From Bordetella parapertussis (GTDB lineage Bacteria > Pseudomonadota > Gammaproteobacteria > Burkholderiales > SG8-41): a stretch of 64,000 bases of DNA. The translations under genes and the position numbers were made by a program. Within the stretch, counting starts at the first letter, position 1. Each line of letters starts with the position of its first letter. The DNA lies in contig CAMDRT010000006.1 of NCBI GenBank assembly GCA_945906815.1, forward strand, positions 1 to 64,000, in the 5' to 3' direction. This document shows positions 14,880 through 23,253 of the stretch, piece after piece. Below the pieces are notes generated by a model. It had not been told where the DNA came from. It saw only the letters and a program-made list of their open reading frames with translations, and did no database searches.

Positions 14880-15476
14880 CTAATCGAATGCCTTCGATCC
14901 CAGTAGGGCTTCACGGAAGCGGTTCTTGATATGCACGCCATCGCGCAAGCGGATCGACAGCGGATAACGATTGGCATTGACTTTGATACTCAAAAATACC
15001 GGCCCTGCCGTGTGGTACAGCGTGGGTATCCAGGATTGGACCTGTGCCAGCGTGGACACTGTGCCGCTGGTCGCAAAGCCTGCGGCTTTTGCCACGCCCG
15101 CCAGATCAACGCCGCGACTGGTGTGTGTGGGTTGGTTGCCGGTTTCGCTGTAGAGCTCGTTGTCGATGACGGCGATGGACAGATTGCGAATTTTTTCCGC
15201 GCCTATGGTGGCGAGCGAACCCAGGCCCATCAGCATTTCGCCGTCGCCGGTGATCACCAGCACGCGGCGCTTGGGCTGCGCGAGCGCGAGCCCTACGCCG
15301 ATCATCGCGGCACCGCCCATGCCGCCCCACATATAGTAGGTGTGGGGATGATCGAGTGTGCCGGCGTCGTAGCACGATGAGCCCAAGCCGGTGACGAGTA
15401 ACGCATCGCCCCGCTCCGTGAGTATGGTTTTGACGGCTACGCGCCGGTCGAGGCTGGATTTTTTTGTTGTCGCCAT
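14880..15476 (-). CDS. ThDP-binding subunit (C-terminal half), sulfopyruvate decarboxylase beta-like
   Basis: A 198-residue protein equal to the PP domain of a ThDP enzyme. It has GLGSSCYDAG, GGMGGAAMIGVGLALAQPKR and the Mg-ThDP motif GDGEMLMGLGSLATI followed by NLSIAVIDNELYSETGNQPT. Length and motifs fit the ComE (sulfopyruvate decarboxylase beta) or phosphonopyruvate decarboxylase C-terminal type. ATG 15476 was preferred over 15491 because GGAG lies 9 nt before it. The partner N-terminal half is encoded 2 bp upstream. Confidence 0.85.
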   Translation of the reverse strand: MATTKKSSLDRRVAVKTILTERGDALLVTGLGSSCYDAGTLDHPHTYYMWGGMGGAAMIGVGLALAQPKRRVLVITGDGEMLMGLGSLATIGAEKIRNLSIAVIDNELYSETGNQPTHTSRGVDLAGVAKAAGFATSGTVSTLAQVQSWIPTLYHTAGPVFLSIKVNANRYPLSIRLRDGVHIKNRFREALLGSKAFD

Positions 15477-15478
15477 GG

Positions 15479-16015
15479 CTATTTGCTCCAATCTTTGAAT
15501 CCGACTACGCGTTGTCCTATGAGTACCGCCACCGGGCGGCAGGTCTGAAATGCCATCATCGCCGAGGCAAAGACGGTTTCACCGACTAATGCGGCTTCGT
15601 TGACGTGGTTCACCACCACACCCACCTCGTCAAGCACCCGGGCCGTGCTTTGTCCCATCGGCAGTTGCCATGGGTTGAATTCGCCCCATTCGCCGCGCAT
15701 GGTCACCAGCGTCAGCAGTGGAAAACGGCATTCGCGTATGGTACCCAGCATGTTAATGCAGTTGCCTACGCCCGATGACTGCATCAGCAGCGCCGCGCGC
15801 TCACCGCCCAGCCAGGCGCCGGCGAGCATGGCGACACCCTCTTCTTCGGTGGTCAGCGAAATCGCTTGCATGTTCTTGTCGGCATGACAACTATGGATGA
15901 GTTGGGTGTGACCGGCGTCGGGCACATACGCGACCTGGCGGATGCCAACTTGCTTGAACACCTTGTAGATGTCCAGCGGCCAGGTGGGCGTTGCGGTTTT
16001 TCGTACTGCTTTCAA
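15479..16015 (-). CDS. ThDP-binding subunit (N-terminal half), sulfopyruvate decarboxylase alpha-like
   Basis: A 178-residue protein equal to the Pyr domain of a ThDP enzyme. It shows QVAYVPDAGHTQLIHSC, the catalytic Glu region ISLTTEEEGVAMLAGAWLGG, LLMQSSGVGNCINML and TMRGEWGEFNPWQ. This matches ComD (sulfopyruvate decarboxylase alpha)-type subunits. With the next gene it should form a heteromeric 2-keto acid decarboxylase, with the ThDP site at the interface. First gene of a minus-strand trio and divergent from the selenoprotein operon, with a 149-bp shared upstream region. Confidence 0.85.
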   Translation of the reverse strand: MKAVRKTATPTWPLDIYKVFKQVGIRQVAYVPDAGHTQLIHSCHADKNMQAISLTTEEEGVAMLAGAWLGGERAALLMQSSGVGNCINMLGTIRECRFPLLTLVTMRGEWGEFNPWQLPMGQSTARVLDEVGVVVNHVNEAALVGETVFASAMMAFQTCRPVAVLIGQRVVGFKDWSK

Positions 16016-16164
16016 ATGAGTCCTCCGTTACAAAAAAGTGTTTGAACTTATGCCAACTTTACCGCGGCCGCTTTGATCACCCCGGCCCAGCGCACAGGCT
16101 GGACTATATCGCAGATTGAGCTGCAACCGCTGGCAGTGCATGCCGTGTGCTGGTAAATTCGGGC

Positions 16165-17154
16165 ATGCTGAATAAATCGTATGCGTGGATACTGCTGGTC
16201 GCGGTGAGTGGAGTGAGTGCAGGGGTACAGGCGCAGCCTGCTGCGACAGGCGCCGCAGCGGCGTACCCGTCGCGGCCGATCCGACTGCTGTCTGGATTTG
16301 CGCCCGGCGGGGCGACCGATATCGCCGCACGTGTGGTGGCGCAGAAGCTGACACAGTCGCTCGGCCAGCCGATGGTGGTGGAAAATCGTCCCGGTGCCGC
16401 AGGCAATATTGCAGCGGAAATGGTCGCGCGCGGCGCGCCCGACGGTCATCTGATGTATCTCGCGAATGCGACTATAGCCACGCCATCGTTGTTCACTCGA
16501 GTGCCGTTTGAGGTGACTCGGGATTTTGCGTTTGTGTCGATGATCGGCCTCGGTCCATCGGGCCTGGTGGTGCATCCGTCGCTGCCGGTGCGCAGCATGA
16601 AAGAACTGATTGCACTGGCGCGCCAGCATCCGGGCAAGCTGAATTTCGCCTCGGGCGGCAGCGGCAATATTTCGCATCTGGCGATGGAATTGTTTGCGTC
16701 GATGGCTGCGCTAGACATGGTGCATGTGCCCTACAAGGGTGGCGCGCCATCGACTGTCGCCACCGTGAGCGGCGAAGCGCAACTGATGTTCAGTTCGATA
16801 GCATCGATGCTGCCGCAGATTCAGCAGGGCCGCTTGCGCGCGCTGGCGGTGTCTTCCGCACAGCGCAGCAGGGTATTGCCTCACGTGCCGACGGTGAGCG
16901 AAGCAGGCTTAAAGGGCTATGAAGCAAGCTCGTGGTACGGCTTGGTTGTGGCGGCGGCAACGCCGCCCGCCGTGGTGTCACGCTTAAGTGCCGAGACAGT
17001 GCGGGCGCTGGCTATGGCGGACGTAAAGGATCGCTTGTCGAGTCAGGGTATAGAACCGGTGGCCGGCGGCGCGGAGGATTTTCGTCACTATGTGCTGGCG
17101 GAAATTCCCAAGTGGGCGAAGGTCATCCGGGATGCAAAAATTCCACCACAGTGA
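16165..17154 (+). CDS. Bug/TctC-type solute-binding protein
   Basis: A 329-residue periplasmic binding protein. I took ATG 16165 (MLNKSYAWILLVAVSGVSAG, signal peptide ending VQAQ) over a GTG six codons upstream. Family motifs are YPSRPIRLLSGFAPGGATD, VENRPGAAGNIAAE, GGSGNISHLAMELFASMA and HVPYKGGAPSTV. It is the first gene of a probable six-gene plus-strand operon that includes the selenoprotein, so its ligand may be the operon's substrate. That link is inferred from order only. Confidence 0.9.
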   Translation: MLNKSYAWILLVAVSGVSAGVQAQPAATGAAAAYPSRPIRLLSGFAPGGATDIAARVVAQKLTQSLGQPMVVENRPGAAGNIAAEMVARGAPDGHLMYLANATIATPSLFTRVPFEVTRDFAFVSMIGLGPSGLVVHPSLPVRSMKELIALARQHPGKLNFASGGSGNISHLAMELFASMAALDMVHVPYKGGAPSTVATVSGEAQLMFSSIASMLPQIQQGRLRALAVSSAQRSRVLPHVPTVSEAGLKGYEASSWYGLVVAAATPPAVVSRLSAETVRALAMADVKDRLSSQGIEPVAGGAEDFRHYVLAEIPKWAKVIRDAKIPPQ

Positions 17155-17175
17155 TGTTTGATATTAGGAGTTGGC

Positions 17176-18825
17176 ATGTACGTGAAATCCATAACCGACA
17201 ACGCTGAATTTGATTACGTCATCGTCGGCGCGGGTTCCGCCGGTTGCGTGTTGGCGGATCGATTGTCTGCCAACGGCAGACATCAGGTGCTGCTGCTCGA
17301 AGCGGGCGGCCGCGACAGCAGTTTTAACATCAAGGTGCCGTTGTATGTGGCGCATGTGCTCAACGACGAGAATCTGACTTGGCCCTATATGACGGAGCCG
17401 CAAACACATCTGAATGGACAGCGTCAGCGCTGGACGCGCGGGCGGGTGATCGGCGGTTGCAGTTCGATCAACGGCAATCTGTTTGTGCGCGGCGATCCGC
17501 AGGAATACGAGCGCTGGCGTGCGTTGGGCTGCAGCGGCTGGGGTTATGCCGACATGCTGCCGTATTTCAGGAAGCTTGAGGATTTCCCCGAGGGCGATCA
17601 GAGCGTGCGTGGCAGTGGCGGGCCGGTTCATTGCACGCCGCTGACGAAATTTGACCCGCTGTCGGACGCTTTTCTCGAGGCCTGCGGTGAAGCGGGCTAC
17701 CGCAAACTGAATGACTATAACGATGGCAGCTACGAAGGCGCCTTCTATTTGCAGTATTCGACCCGCAACGGCTGGCGTAACAGCACGCCGGTGGGGTATC
17801 TCAATCCGTCGCTCAAGCGGCCCAATCTGACGGTGCTGCCCCATGCCCGTGTGACGCGTGTGTTGCTGGCAGGGGACAGCAAGCGCGCCACGGGCATCGC
17901 TTACCGCATGGGAGAAGTCAACTTTCAGGTCAAGGCGCGCCGTGAAGTATTGCTGGCTGCTGGCCCGTTGGCATCACCCCAGCTGCTGGAACTGTCGGGT
18001 ATCGGCAACAGCGCGTTGTTGCAAAAGCACGGCATTAGTGTGCAGCACCATCTGCCGGGCGTCGGCGAGAACCTGCGCGATCATCCGAATACGCGGATCA
18101 CTTATGAATGCGCGCAGCCGATCACCATCAATGACGTGCTGCGCAGCCCGTGGCTCAAGCTCAAGGAAGGTCTGCGCTTCGTGTTCAAGCGCGAAGGGTT
18201 ACTGACGATATGCTCGGCGACGGCGCAGATGAATCATCGCAGCAGTGACCAGGTGGAGCAACCCGACCTCGTGCTGCGGCTGTTGCCGCTGTCCGGTAAG
18301 GATCGCTATGCGCGCACACCCGCCAAGGGACTTGATCCGCATCCGGGTTTTACGCTGGGTGTCACCTTATTGCAGCCGTACTCGCGCGGCACCTGCCATA
18401 TTCAATCGAACGACCCGCTGCAACAAGCGGCGATGGATCCGAAATATTTGTCGCACGAAGCCGACACGCAGTTGTTTCTGGATGGCATACGTGTGGCGCG
18501 CAAGGTCGCGCAACAGCCCGCGTTACGCTCGCTGATCGTGCGTGAAACGCGGCCGGGTCCCGAGGTCAATGACGATGCCGGCTTGCTCGACTACATGCGT
18601 GGCACCATACAAACCAGTTGGCATATGGTCGGCACCTGCAAGATGGGGGCGCACACGGATAGCGACGCGGTGGTGGATCCGCAGTTGCGGGTGAAGGGCA
18701 TCGCCGGTCTGCGCGTGATCGATTCGTCGATCTGCCCCACGATACCGTCGTCGAATACGAATATTCCGTCGATTGCGATAGGTGAGAAGGGCGCGGCTAT
18801 GGTGCTGGCGGCGGCAGAGGCGTAA
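17176..18825 (+). CDS. GMC family FAD-dependent oxidoreductase
   Basis: A 549-residue glucose-methanol-choline oxidoreductase, choline/alcohol-dehydrogenase-like. The FAD-binding motif FDYVIVGAGSAGCVLADRLS is at residues 9-28, GGCSSINGNLFVRG follows, and the C terminus has the active-site region SWHMVGTCKMG and a second FAD segment SNTNIPSIAIGEKGA. It would oxidise an alcohol to an aldehyde or ketone. ATG 17176 is preceded by AGGAG with 5-nt spacing. It sits 21 bp after the Bug gene and 26 bp before the selenoprotein. Confidence 0.92.
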   Translation: MYVKSITDNAEFDYVIVGAGSAGCVLADRLSANGRHQVLLLEAGGRDSSFNIKVPLYVAHVLNDENLTWPYMTEPQTHLNGQRQRWTRGRVIGGCSSINGNLFVRGDPQEYERWRALGCSGWGYADMLPYFRKLEDFPEGDQSVRGSGGPVHCTPLTKFDPLSDAFLEACGEAGYRKLNDYNDGSYEGAFYLQYSTRNGWRNSTPVGYLNPSLKRPNLTVLPHARVTRVLLAGDSKRATGIAYRMGEVNFQVKARREVLLAAGPLASPQLLELSGIGNSALLQKHGISVQHHLPGVGENLRDHPNTRITYECAQPITINDVLRSPWLKLKEGLRFVFKREGLLTICSATAQMNHRSSDQVEQPDLVLRLLPLSGKDRYARTPAKGLDPHPGFTLGVTLLQPYSRGTCHIQSNDPLQQAAMDPKYLSHEADTQLFLDGIRVARKVAQQPALRSLIVRETRPGPEVNDDAGLLDYMRGTIQTSWHMVGTCKMGAHTDSDAVVDPQLRVKGIAGLRVIDSSICPTIPSSNTNIPSIAIGEKGAAMVLAAAEA

Positions 18826-18851: not shown

Positions 18852-20555
18852 ATGAACGAAAAAATGGGCGTGGTCAGCCCTGAAGGTTTGCAACTGCGTG
18901 TGTCGAGCGGCGTGAGCCGCCACCTCGATACATTGGAGGGCAAGACTATCGGCGAGGTCTACAACAACCACTTCAAGGGCGAACAGATGTTTCGCGCCTA
19001 TCGCCGGTTGTTGAAGCAAAAGTATCCCGGCGTGAAAATTATTCCTTACGATAAATTTCCGACGATCTACGTCGGTGGTGATCCAGCCTCGCAACACCAG
19101 GATGCCAAGCAAGCGGCAGCGCTGGCCCTAGAGTGGGGTTGCGATGCGATTATCACCGGTAACGGCGGGTGAGGCACCTGCACCCCGGCCTCGGTGAGGC
19201 CGGCAGCAGAAGCCGAAAAACTCGGCATACCCAGTGTGGTGATTACCACCACCGGATTTACCACCATCGCCAAGGCCGCGGGCAAGGCGCAAGGGGTGAC
19301 AGGGCTGCGCGTTGCCGAATATCCGGGCGCAGTCGGCGTTCATGCGGAAGCGCTGGTGGAAAAAAATGTAGAGGAGGTGCTGTTCGAGCGCATCATCCAT
19401 GAGCTGACCCAGCCCCGCGTGGGCGAGATGCAGGACGCGCCGCTGGATGCCAAGCACGCCGGCGCTATCGTTTTTGTAGGCACGTTTGACGAAATCAACG
19501 AACACTTCCGGCAGCAATTGTGGTCGGATGAGTTGCCGGTGATTCCGCCGACAGTAGAGCGGGTCGAGGCCTTTCTTAAACACACCCGCCGTGCGCCCGA
19601 TGAGCCTATAGCCGTGCTGCCACAGGCCAATCTGGCTGCGACGCCGAGGAATATTGCCGCGAATGCGGTGATGGCAGGATGCCGTCCGCAACACCTGCCG
19701 CTACTGATCGCGGCGGTGGAGGCGATAGCGGACAATGCCTACAACCTGAATAACATCGGCAGTACCTGGGGTGTGCTGCCGTTTCTGCTGATCAATGGGC
19801 CTGCCGCAAAACAGCTCGGTGTTGAAAACGGCGCGCAACTGATTAACAAAGGTGCCAATCCCGCATTGGGCCGGGCGCTGGGGCTGATCATCAAGAATAT
19901 TGCGGGCTACAAGCTGGGCCGCAACTACATGGGCACGTTCGGCTATCCGATGAATTTCGTGGTCGCTGAAAACGAGGACGAGTGTCCGTGGCAGCCCTAC
20001 CACGTCGAACAGGGCTACCACAAACAGGACAGCACCGTCACCGCTTGCGGCACGGTCACCTGGGGCTGGCCACCGGCGATTTACGGCACGCCGAACAAAA
20101 CCGCTGCCCAGAGTGCGCTTGAATTTTTGAGTATCGAAGTGACCAAGAAACCGTGCCTCGCGCGGTTGGTGGAACGCGGGCCACAGGGTTTTAGGAACAT
20201 GATTACCTTCCTGCTTGCCCCGCCGATCGCTAAGGCATTGGCAAGCGCGGGTTACACCAAGCAAAAAATTCGCGAGTATGTGTATGAACATGCTCGCGTG
20301 CCCTGTAAGGAATTGGAATTTCTGATCGAGTACGGGCACTCGGAGGCGTTCAAAATTTCCGACATGGTGGAGCGCGGGCTGCTGCCCGCGGCGTATCGGG
20401 TGCAGCCGGACGCGCTGGTGCAGGTGCTGCCCAGTCCCGATGTGATCAACATTGTGGTTTGTGGGGATCCTGATCGCAACAGAGCGATGGTGCTGTGGGG
20501 CGGTTATGTCAGTCCGGTCACCAAAAAGATCGAGATCGTAGCGGAAGTGTTATAA
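18852..20555 (+). CDS. UGSC-type selenoprotein with large C-terminal domain (UGA decoded as Sec)
   Basis: One 567-residue gene with a single in-frame UGA at 19170-19172. Frames on both sides are the same, and protein similarity style continues through the stop: the motif reads ITGNGG-U-GTCTPAS, placing Sec at residue 107 and Cys at 110 (U-x-x-C, a thioredoxin-like redox pair). A SECIS-like hairpin follows at 19185-19203. The first ~180 residues resemble the UGSC-motif family, known in selenocysteine and cysteine forms; here the motif is UGTC. The remaining ~370 residues (MAGCRPQHLPLLIAAVEA, INGPAAKQLGVENG, ANPALGRALGLIIKNIAGY) form a second conserved-looking domain of unknown role. ATG 18852 has GAAGGG 6 nt before it. 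Enzymatic function is unknown; redox activity is inferred. Confidence 0.85.
19170..19203 (+). promoter_or_regulatory. Bacterial SECIS element after the Sec UGA
   Basis: After UGA (19170-19172) comes a 12-nt linker, then a perfect 8-bp stem CCGGCCTC (19185-19192) / GAGGCCGG (19196-19203) closed by the loop GGT (19193-19195). The loop begins 20 nt after the UGA. Bacterial SECIS elements bind SelB, lie within the coding region just after the UGA and require a G among the first two loop bases; this hairpin meets each point. The stem is also coding sequence (PASVRPA). Confidence 0.8.
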
Positions 20556-20584: not shown

Positions 20585-21754
20585 ATGATAGAACGCATAG
20601 AGATTTTCGTCACGGAATTGCCGGTGCGGGTGCAGCGCATTTTTTCCAGCGGCCCGTATGACACTGGCCCTGCCCAACAACTACTGGGCAAACCAGTACT
20701 GGTAAAAATTTTCGCCGATGGCGTGGTCGGCTTTGGACAGATACGCCCGATCACGCCGGGTCATTTTTTGGCTGACACGACACAGGGTATGGTTGCCGCG
20801 ATCAAAGAGATTTACGGCAAAAACCTGATTGGGAAATCGTTGTTTGATATAGAAGCCGCGAATGAAATGTTCAATCTGCGGCTGGCCGGCAACCCCTGCG
20901 CGCGCGCGGTGCTTGATATTGCGCTGCATGATGCGATGGGTAAGGCGCTCAACGTGCCGGTGCATAAGCTGATCGGCGGTGCCTGCCAGCCGCGCATACC
21001 ACTCGAATGGTCAGTGAGTCTGGCCGATGATGTTCAGACCATCGTCAACGAAGCGACGCGCGCGGTAAACGAATTCGGCATCAAAGTGTTGTGCATCAAG
21101 GCCGCTGACCGGCGCGGCTGGCGGCAGGACGTGAAACACTTTGCAGCGGTGAGGCGTGCGGTGGGTGACGACGTGGTCATCGGCACTGATCCGAATACCG
21201 GTTGGTCGCTGGCCGACGCCTTAAGTGCGATACACGCGATGCGCGAATTCGATCTGGGCTATATCGAGCAGCCGATAGAACGGCGCGATCTGGCGGGCAT
21301 GGCCGAGATTCGGCGGCAGGCGATGGGCGTGCCGGTGATGGCAGATGAATCCCTGTTCACGGTGCAGGATGCGTATGCGCTGGCCGAAGCGCGTGCGGTG
21401 GACGCGTATTGCATCAAGCTTTACAAGATCGGTGGTTTAACGCCCGCAAAAAAAATCGCTGCCGTGGCCGAGGCGGCCAATATCCAGCTCAATTGTGGCG
21501 GACTTGCGGTGCAATGCCAGCTTGAGGCCGCGGCATCGGCGCACTTTTACGCCAGCACGCCGGAAAAACGCATGATGGGTGCAGCGGAATTTGTGATGGG
21601 CCTGAATACCATAGGCCCCGACCCCATAGTTCCGCAGACGGATTTCGTGATCAAAGACGGGCACGTGCATGTGCCGACCGGGCCGGGCCTGGGCATCACG
21701 GTGGATGAAGCGGCGCTTAAAAAACATACGCTGTGGCACGAAATTGTGACGTGA
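20585..21754 (+). CDS. Mandelate racemase/muconate-lactonizing enzyme family protein
   Basis: A 389-residue enolase-superfamily enzyme. It has the N-terminal capping domain (MIERIEIFVTELPVRVQR), a C-terminal barrel with Lys in LCIKAADRRG, metal ligands in IGTDPNTGW (Asp), YIEQPIE (Glu) and MADESLF (Glu), and a Lys in YCIKLYKIGG on the other face. Members abstract an alpha-proton from a carboxylate to racemise, dehydrate or cycloisomerise it. ATG 20585 was chosen because the longer frame overlaps the selenoprotein; the gap to it is 29 bp. Likely acts on the same carboxylate as the neighbouring genes. Confidence 0.9.
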   Translation: MIERIEIFVTELPVRVQRIFSSGPYDTGPAQQLLGKPVLVKIFADGVVGFGQIRPITPGHFLADTTQGMVAAIKEIYGKNLIGKSLFDIEAANEMFNLRLAGNPCARAVLDIALHDAMGKALNVPVHKLIGGACQPRIPLEWSVSLADDVQTIVNEATRAVNEFGIKVLCIKAADRRGWRQDVKHFAAVRRAVGDDVVIGTDPNTGWSLADALSAIHAMREFDLGYIEQPIERRDLAGMAEIRRQAMGVPVMADESLFTVQDAYALAEARAVDAYCIKLYKIGGLTPAKKIAAVAEAANIQLNCGGLAVQCQLEAAASAHFYASTPEKRMMGAAEFVMGLNTIGPDPIVPQTDFVIKDGHVHVPTGPGLGITVDEAALKKHTLWHEIVT

Positions 21755-21843: not shown

Positions 21844-23253
21844 ATGACATCGAGCACGCCACCCCCCTATGATCCGCGGCAGTTCAAAGCGTTGACGTTT
21901 TACGACGCGGTGCCGCGTTTTCGTGACGGCACCGATACGCCGCGCGCGTACCTGGAGCGCTGCCTGGCAACCATTGCCGTGCGCGAGCCGGTGGTGCAGG
22001 CGTTTGTGGTGTTGAACGAGGCGGGCGCGCGCGCTGCCGCCGATGCCAGCAGTGCGCGCTGGAAGGCGGGCAATCCGCTGTCGGCCATCGACGGTATGCC
22101 GCTAGCGATCAAGGATTTGCTGGAAACCAAAGATATGCCCACCGAGATGGGCTGCGAAGCGTACCGCGGCAATTTTCCCCAGCGCGACAATGCCGCCGTG
22201 TGGGCGCTGCGCGAGGCGGGCGCGGTAATTCTGGGCAAGACGGTGACTGCTGAACTGGGCGGCACGCACCCGGGGCCGACCACCAATCCGTTCGATGCTG
22301 CGCGCACACCGGGCGGCTCGTCGGCCGGGTCTGCTGCCGCAATCGCCGCGCGCATGGTGCCGGCAGCTTTGGGCACGCAGGTGGGCGGTTCCATCATTCG
22401 TCCCGCCGCGTTTTGCGGCAACATTGCGCTGAAGCCGACGATGGGTGCCATCAATCGCGGTGAGCGGCAGGCCACCAGCACCAGCACCACCGGTGTACAT
22501 GCGGGTAGCCTCGAAGATATGTGGCAGGTCGCGATAGAAATTGCGCGCCGCGCCGGCGGCGATCCCGGCCGCCCCGGACTGTTTGGGACTGTGGTTCCTC
22601 CTGCGGCGGCGAAACCGGAACGCCTGATGGTGCTGGAAAGCGCGGGCTGGGCCGCGCTGGATAGCGCCAGCCGCGCGGCGTTTGAAACGCTGTTGGAAAA
22701 TTTGCAGTCGGCCGGGGTCAGCTTGGTTCGCCGCAACGATCATCCGTGGATCGAGGCCTTGGAGCAGGCGCTGCGCAACGCCAGCGACATCAGCAACGGC
22801 ATCACGGCATGGGAAAATCGCTGGTATCAGGCGAACCTGATCGAACAGTATCCGCAGCGTGTCAGCGCGCGCCTCACCGCCACCGTCAGACGGGCGCAGG
22901 CGATGCGCCCCGACGACTACCGCGCGCTGCTGCTGGAGCGCGCGGCGGCACAGCAGTGCCACGCTATGCTGGCGCCGCTCGCCGACGCGATCATCATGCT
23001 GTCGTGTGCGGGGCCCGCGCCGCTGTGGCCCGGCGACGTGCCAGGCCAGCCGCTGGCGCCGCGTCCGACCGGCGATTCTGTTTTTAATACGCCCAGCTCG
23101 ATGTTGTTCGCGCCGGCGGTGACCCTGCCGCTGCTGGCTGTGGGTGGCATGCCGGTGGGCGTGCAACTGATGGGCCAGCAGCATCAGGACGCGCGCATGA
23201 CCGCTCTGGCACGCTGGATGCTGGGTGCGGTGGCGCCGGTGGTGGTGTCATGA
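21844..23253 (+). CDS. Amidase signature family hydrolase
   Basis: A 469-residue amidase. The Ser-cisSer-Lys triad can be placed: Lys90 in PLAIKDLLET, Ser159/160 in RTPGGSSAGSA and nucleophile Ser183 in GTQVGGSIIRPAAFCG. It would hydrolyse an amide to a carboxylate and ammonia. ATG 21844 is preceded by CAGGAG with suitable spacing. The 89-bp gap after the enolase-superfamily gene is the longest in this gene run but shows no terminator. Confidence 0.92.
   Translation: MTSSTPPPYDPRQFKALTFYDAVPRFRDGTDTPRAYLERCLATIAVREPVVQAFVVLNEAGARAAADASSARWKAGNPLSAIDGMPLAIKDLLETKDMPTEMGCEAYRGNFPQRDNAAVWALREAGAVILGKTVTAELGGTHPGPTTNPFDAARTPGGSSAGSAAAIAARMVPAALGTQVGGSIIRPAAFCGNIALKPTMGAINRGERQATSTSTTGVHAGSLEDMWQVAIEIARRAGGDPGRPGLFGTVVPPAAAKPERLMVLESAGWAALDSASRAAFETLLENLQSAGVSLVRRNDHPWIEALEQALRNASDISNGITAWENRWYQANLIEQYPQRVSARLTATVRRAQAMRPDDYRALLLERAAAQQCHAMLAPLADAIIMLSCAGPAPLWPGDVPGQPLAPRPTGDSVFNTPSSMLFAPAVTLPLLAVGGMPVGVQLMGQQHQDARMTALARWMLGAVAPVVVS

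Follow-up and report, generated by a model that had tools for sequence, protein, structure and literature searches.

A predicted UGSC-family selenoprotein with remote kinship to the GrdB/PrdB selenocysteine domain, and its many relatives in a Burkholderiales lineage

In aquatic metagenomes, UGSC proteins count as a major selenoprotein family, the one used most often in non-marine samples (PMC2398784). The same 2008 GOS paper already contains the architecture in which a UGSC domain is fused to a second domain, Unknown_1, and its passages cited here assign the UGSC family no function. In GrdB-type proteins, the selenol is described as attacking the substrate, and a Synergistota strain carries eight GrdB-like genes whose proposed substrates differ from one another and extend to the C-F bond of fluoroacetate (PMC10838667). 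A 2026 review names, in the part cited here, whole selenoproteomes of 57 and 63 genes as the largest in bacteria (PMC13188914). The UGSC family and its fused architecture are therefore known already; what is noteworthy at the locus described here is the multiplication of the family in one lineage and its link to GrdB and PrdB.

The coding sequence at positions 18852..20555 of the forward strand of the window (the whole 64,000-nucleotide stretch of DNA that was analysed) is, to judge from its sequence, almost certainly one gene of the UGSC family whose UGA is decoded as selenocysteine (Sec). It runs in a single frame from the ATG at 18852 to the TAA that ends at 20555, with the TGA at 19170..19172 as its sole interruption, and would encode 567 amino acids that comprise a UGSC domain and Unknown_1 (frame, Pfam, and alignment). 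Frame and conservation place Sec at residue 107, in the motif GG-U-G-T-C-T. The first-pass annotation had described two in-phase frames split by one UGA and a coding character that continues across it, and both descriptions hold. The open reading frames 18852-19172 and 19194-20555 share a frame (offset 342 nt) and have no stop between them other than this TGA. GC3 is 0.67 upstream of the UGA versus 0.70 downstream, and the two halves, searched separately, match successive parts of PF24696 (profile 2-91 and 94-171). TGA is also the commonest stop among the open reading frames of at least 230 aa in the window, terminating 19 of 41; therefore, the genetic code is not reassigned, and a global reassignment of UGA was ruled out. 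The proposed membership in a UGSC-type family stood at the level of Pfam (joined protein versus PF24696, 90.8 bits; gathering cut-off, 25) but not at that of the NCBI UGSC equivalog NF041046 (58.8 bits; cut-off, 125), and the motif reads UGTC.

Directly behind the UGA lies the apical hairpin of a putative SECIS element (19185..19203, forward strand), which was evaluated by folding, codon, and stem tests. Its arms, CCGGCCTC (19185-19192) and GAGGCCGG (19196-19203), pair perfectly over 8 bp around the loop GGT (19193-19195), with the stem beginning 12 nt and the loop 20 nt after the UGA, exactly where the first-pass annotation had put them. As that annotation also claimed, the element has the features of a bacterial SECIS, namely, a position immediately after the UGA and a G in a small apical loop (GGU). 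The RNA fold that it had suggested as a check, made on 60 nt, recovers the hairpin (−27.1 kcal/mol), but the stability of this single sequence is only modest when compared with dinucleotide shuffles (z = −1.73; 12 of 200 shuffles equally good).

Comparison across the family is more telling. An uninterrupted stem of at least 7 bp is present at the scanned position in 51 of 67 distinct UGSC genes versus 15.3 expected under synonymous codon swaps, and therefore the hairpin is more than a chance occurrence. The 67 genes are what remained of 95 hits of U-G-S/T/A-C (flanked both ways by 60 codons or more) once duplicates had been discarded, a set that excludes the motifs UGNC, UGVC, and UGGC. Where the stem has at least 6 bp (52 UGSC genes), the loop falls 19 or 20 nt after the UGA in 43 cases. 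Free energy is weaker evidence than the stem and codon tests: the mean z of the 67 hairpins is −1.5, 24 of them beat synonymous shuffles at 0.05, and 39 stand out against other places in their own gene.

Codon usage behind the UGA is constrained as well. In 20 orthologues, codon identity over the 11 codons behind the UGA is 0.78 (9 columns) versus 0.53 elsewhere (240 columns), and the amino-acid-corrected excess of 0.28 is above the maximum of 231 control runs (0.20). This test scored conserved residues only and used the window gene with 19 of the 24 loci of alignment A1, leaving out the more divergent L070, L071, and L073-L075; A1 itself consists of the window gene and 24 of 32 related loci, the other eight being seven partial loci and L066, where the length of the match is not divisible by three. 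In the stem, the conserved Pro, Ser, Arg, and Pro are encoded by CCG, TCG, AGG, and CCG, respectively, each in 20 of 20 orthologues, although AGG makes up only 6% of the Arg codons in these genes. Within a subfamily of 41 distinct sequences, TCG (Ser) occurs together with AGG (Arg) in 31 and GCG (Ala) together with CGG (Arg) in 10, with no mixed combination, so that a synonymous Arg change accompanies the Ser/Ala change and restores the stem pair. Because the 41 sequences are related, this coupled change may be a single event. All eight stem pairs form in 30 of the 41 sequences and seven, with one mismatch, in the other 11. Paralogue clades with different peptides have different stems in roughly the same place. 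By these comparisons, the hairpin behind the UGA is under selection.

The UGA itself is widely conserved. The protein has matches in 39 of the 60 genomes searched, its own included, and an in-frame TGA is present in every listed match that covers residue 107; a search of phages gave no match. In an alignment of 44 UGSC domains (alignment A3: 42 of the 67 UGSC genes, with 25 near orthologues left out, plus two Cys forms), the Sec or Cys, the Gly that follows it, and the second Cys are invariant, which in the 42 Sec rows is partly so by construction because these were picked by U-G-S/T/A-C. The Cys homologues that the first-pass annotation had recommended seeking do exist: Cys occupies the Sec position on plasmids of Natrinema zhouii and Variovorax boronicumulans and in two further genomes of the phylum. 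A sample of 398 genomes from that phylum has the domain in five, including the source genome, and among the other four, G333 and G201 have Cys forms (L167 and L168) and the remaining two have Sec forms (L165, L166, and L169). The Cys copy of G333 has a TGA inside its matched stretch, which we read as lying away from the motif, and this copy may therefore be disrupted. Homologues with neither Cys nor Sec, the outcome named beforehand as speaking against a selenoprotein, do occur, but only as two divergent paralogues (L171 and L172, on contigs C76 and C80 of the sister-genus genome G014) that read CNAGITQP at the motif.

Three of the four selenocysteine genes that were to be looked for in the same genome are present. 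The metagenome-assembled genome (MAG) that contains the window has tRNA-Sec (selC; 75.8 bits, in agreement with ARAGORN), SelB (455.8 bits), and SelA (578.2 bits), with selA, selB, and selC grouped on contig C12. Between selB and selC lies a gene for a thioredoxin-reductase-like flavoprotein (L142:1634-2542 on contig C12) that scores under its family cut-off. A profile search found no selD over the cut-off in this MAG, which is 95% complete; a candidate on contig C71 fell below the cut-off and was rejected, its open reading frame being read as a probable thiamine-monophosphate kinase (ThiL). A selD with an in-frame TGA is found in all 13 congeners and in 9 further members of the taxonomic family searched, as well as in two genomes from other families of the order (G040 and G047), and seven other genomes of the order have a selD without an in-frame TGA. 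In the one copy inspected, the TGA codon lies within HGGGUGCK. We infer that the lack of selD in the source MAG is an assembly gap. The presence of selA, selB, and selC, the conserved UGA, the Cys relatives, and the selected hairpin all bear out the first-pass reading of the UGA as selenocysteine, and as far as a sequence can tell, the selenoprotein is genuine and of a known family.

The UGSC domain spans residues 7-186 (18870..19409, forward strand; Pfam and AlphaFold model) and has a Rossmann-like alpha/beta form in the predicted model. The AlphaFold model of the whole protein is good (pLDDT, 84.9; pTM, 0.83). Its residues 26-201 have PurE and other Rossmann-like folds among their best matches to solved structures (for PurE, Z of about 10 and rmsd of about 3, with 122-124 residues aligned), and the matches listed for them are Rossmann-like throughout, with no thioredoxin-like fold seen, although absence from that listing does not count against such a fold. 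On the model, the domain looks Rossmann-like and not evidently thioredoxin-like. Searches for solved relatives by sequence gave one row with phmmer (E = 0.49) and none with a profile at E up to 10, and Foldseek with the whole model gave nothing at E of 0.001 or better. Profile comparisons point to the glycine and D-proline reductases. At an E of 0.1 or lower, 21 of the 44 UGSC domains match the glycine reductase selenoprotein B model TIGR01917 (best, 3.5e−6) and 18 match the PrdB model (best, 2.3e−7); Pfam Gly_reductase is matched by five (best, 0.024). The window protein matches TIGR01917 over residues 72-155, Sec included (E = 0.0015; 17.5 bits; cut-off, 602.2), and PrdB at E = 0.019 (14.4 bits; cut-off, 300). 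These profile matches suggest that the UGSC domain is a remote homologue of the Sec domain of GrdB and PrdB, not a member of either family.

Residues 203-567 (19458..20552, forward strand) form the second domain, which has no Pfam family over the cut-off and was delimited by Pfam, structure searches, and alignment; matching it by architecture alone, we take it to be Unknown_1 of the 2008 GOS paper (PMC2398784). Cys277 (codon at 19680..19682, forward strand) is its sole invariant cysteine (14 of 14 aligned sequences). The source genome has seven fused genes, six separate UGSC genes, and seven separate Unknown_1 genes, and this co-occurrence of fused and separate genes ties the two domains together. 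An Unknown_1 gene lies within about 150 nt of four of the six separate UGSC genes and within 7 kb of the other two. Modelled alone, Unknown_1 reaches a pLDDT of 87.0 and has no Foldseek match at E of 0.001 or better; its best VIA Z is 4.8. Judged by its model, the domain would thus be without a close solved fold in the searches made, and we do not claim a new fold.

The family is multiplied in the lineage. The source genome has 14 PF24696 matches, which correspond to 13 genes, all with U at the motif. One further observation concerns the copy at C84:4258-4712 of this genome (G000), which is matched as two overlapping pieces and may for this reason carry a frameshift or an assembly error. Across the genus, PF24696 occurs in 14 of 14 genomes, with 14-36 matches each and 310 in total, and TGA is present in all the matches listed, about half of the total. 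In G014, a MAG from the sister genus, 54 of 58 matches have an in-frame TGA, three of the 54 with a further stop. The placement of the TGA at the motif in G014 rests on 30 of the 54 matches, of which 29 show U at the motif and the other is near a contig start, outside the position filter. Because the G014 assembly resembles a MAG and is spread over about 330 contigs, its count may include mixed-strain copies or genes cut by contig ends. We did not find this expansion in the parts of the open-licence literature covered by our search.

The neighbours of the window gene, all on the forward strand, are suggestive of catabolism. Upstream are a TctC (Bug) receptor of tripartite tricarboxylate transporters (16147..17154; family search) and a choline dehydrogenase-like GMC oxidoreductase (17158..18825; under NCBI cut-offs), and downstream are a muconate cycloisomerase-like enzyme of the enolase superfamily (20585..21754; under the NCBI cut-off) and an amidase (21844..23253). 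The GMC gene recurs in 12 and the amidase gene in three of the 32 related loci, some of which are cut short by contig ends, and the enolase-superfamily gene adjoins the UGSC gene or a UGSC fragment in eight of them; these three neighbours are found mostly at the closest orthologues. A TctC gene likewise recurs at some of the orthologous loci. At least 150 TctC/Bug receptors are encoded in the source genome (of 426 candidates, 150 were scored and all 150 matched). A TctC gene from this scored set lies within 3 kb of seven of the 13 UGSC genes versus 2.7 expected (P of about 0.008 by a simple approximation), an excess that is only moderate because TctC is so common in the genome. On the reverse strand, at 14880-16015, there is also a split thiamine-diphosphate decarboxylase pair that resembles sulfopyruvate decarboxylase alpha/beta and falls under curated cut-offs; such a pair is present in four of the 32 related loci.

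Plasmids carry the same genes. One UGSC/Unknown_1 gene with the UGA is found on p2-T1, a conjugative IncP plasmid from Acidovorax sp. T1, where the distributed gene table lists just the stretch that precedes the UGA. Split UGSC and Unknown_1 pairs with the UGA occur on Paracoccus plasmids; on one of them, pFER4, selB starts about 3.3 kb behind the Unknown_1 gene, and the annotation splits the UGSC gene into two hypothetical proteins. In the gene tables of the plasmid-borne Sec-type loci (L160, L161, and L164), the genes are broken or omitted at the UGA. Upstream of the Cys-type gene of Variovorax (L163) are a TctC gene and a gene for a thioredoxin-reductase-like protein that shares 30% identity with the sel-cluster flavoprotein.

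While the Sec decoding step is well supported, the enzymatic role can be put forward only tentatively. We propose, as the likeliest of several possibilities although still short of an even chance, that the window protein is a substrate-specific selenoenzyme of a catabolic operon. Sec107 and Cys110 would form a UxxC pair on a GrdB/PrdB-related domain, and Sec107, like that of GrdB, would act on a small organic acid supplied by the TctC receptor. Unknown_1 would hold or activate the substrate, and the thioredoxin-reductase-like flavoprotein may re-reduce the selenylsulfide. By analogy with GrdB, every UGSC/Unknown_1 unit would then be a substrate-specific selenoenzyme served by an uptake receptor. 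With somewhat more reserve, we conjecture that a Burkholderiales lineage radiated a GrdB/PrdB-related Sec domain plus Unknown_1 into substrate-specific catabolic selenoenzymes encoded beside TctC, with about 50 genes of this single family in one genome, that the unit has also moved onto plasmids, and that Cys forms of it are in use in Haloarchaea and Variovorax.

A selenoprotein with a general redox role of the thiol-disulfide or peroxide type, rather than a catabolic enzyme, is a slightly less likely reading. Such a protein would fit the Sec/Cys-G-x-Cys motif, which shows no variation among the 44 aligned domains (42 chosen by that motif), and the cited text of the 2008 GOS paper expected a thioredoxin-like fold (PMC2398784). 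However, PurE and further Rossmann-like structures rank among the top solved matches to residues 26-201, the remote sequence kin are GrdB and PrdB, and 13 to about 54 copies per genome in the company of catabolic neighbours would be unlike a stress protein. Improbable is the further reading that Unknown_1 is itself a hydro-lyase-like or desulfidase-like enzyme, which the UGSC domain activates or re-reduces. In its favour, the Unknown_1 model repeatedly, though weakly, resembles class I fumarate hydratases (Z = 3.3-4.6, for the most part with 183-200 residues aligned at 5-6 A) and the desulfidase CyuA (Z = 3.8-3.9, 83 residues), the first Foldseek row is a fumarase (E = 0.38), and Unknown_1 has one invariant Cys. 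Every one of these Z values is below 5, inside the stated noise of the tool, and with that single invariant Cys, Unknown_1 is unlikely to hold a cluster through several conserved cysteines. A pseudogene, a sequencing error, or two separate genes can be dismissed as very improbable: a GTG located 21 nt past the UGA might serve as the start of a second gene and the source assembly is fragmented (97 contigs), but the split point lies inside one domain (PF24696), and pseudogene and sequencing error are rejected by the identical TGA in many separate assemblies and the frozen synonymous codons behind it.

The two-domain unit, the link to GrdB, and the recurring neighbours make a concrete, testable enzyme hypothesis for the family. 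Dozens of genes of the same kind per related bacterium would be an exceptional commitment to selenium proteins; should the count hold, a single family would come close, in gene number, to the largest whole selenoproteomes named in the cited part of the 2026 review, and it would do so outside the mostly anaerobic groups named there (PMC13188914). The expanded lineage could be one source of the UGSC genes in metagenomes. Ordinary annotation cuts the genes of UGSC selenoproteins at the UGA, as p2-T1 and pFER4 illustrate.

Compared with described systems, the window protein is closest to the UGSC family (PF24696/NF041046), with which it shares a score over the Pfam cut-off and a Sec in UxxC followed by a SECIS element and from which it differs by UGTC in place of UGSC, a score below the NF041046 cut-off, and the expansion to many copies. 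The same two domains occur with Cys in place of Sec, in both cases as CGSC, as a split pair in the haloarchaeon Natrinema and as a fused gene in Variovorax. To GrdB and PrdB of the glycine, sarcosine, betaine, and D-proline reductases, the likeness is a remote one in the sequence around Sec, with UGSC scores far below the cut-offs of those families and with related loci here that are mostly from Burkholderiales or Betaproteobacteria. GrdB also offers the precedent for an expanded family, since its multiple copies per genome have been assigned to different substrates (PMC10838667).
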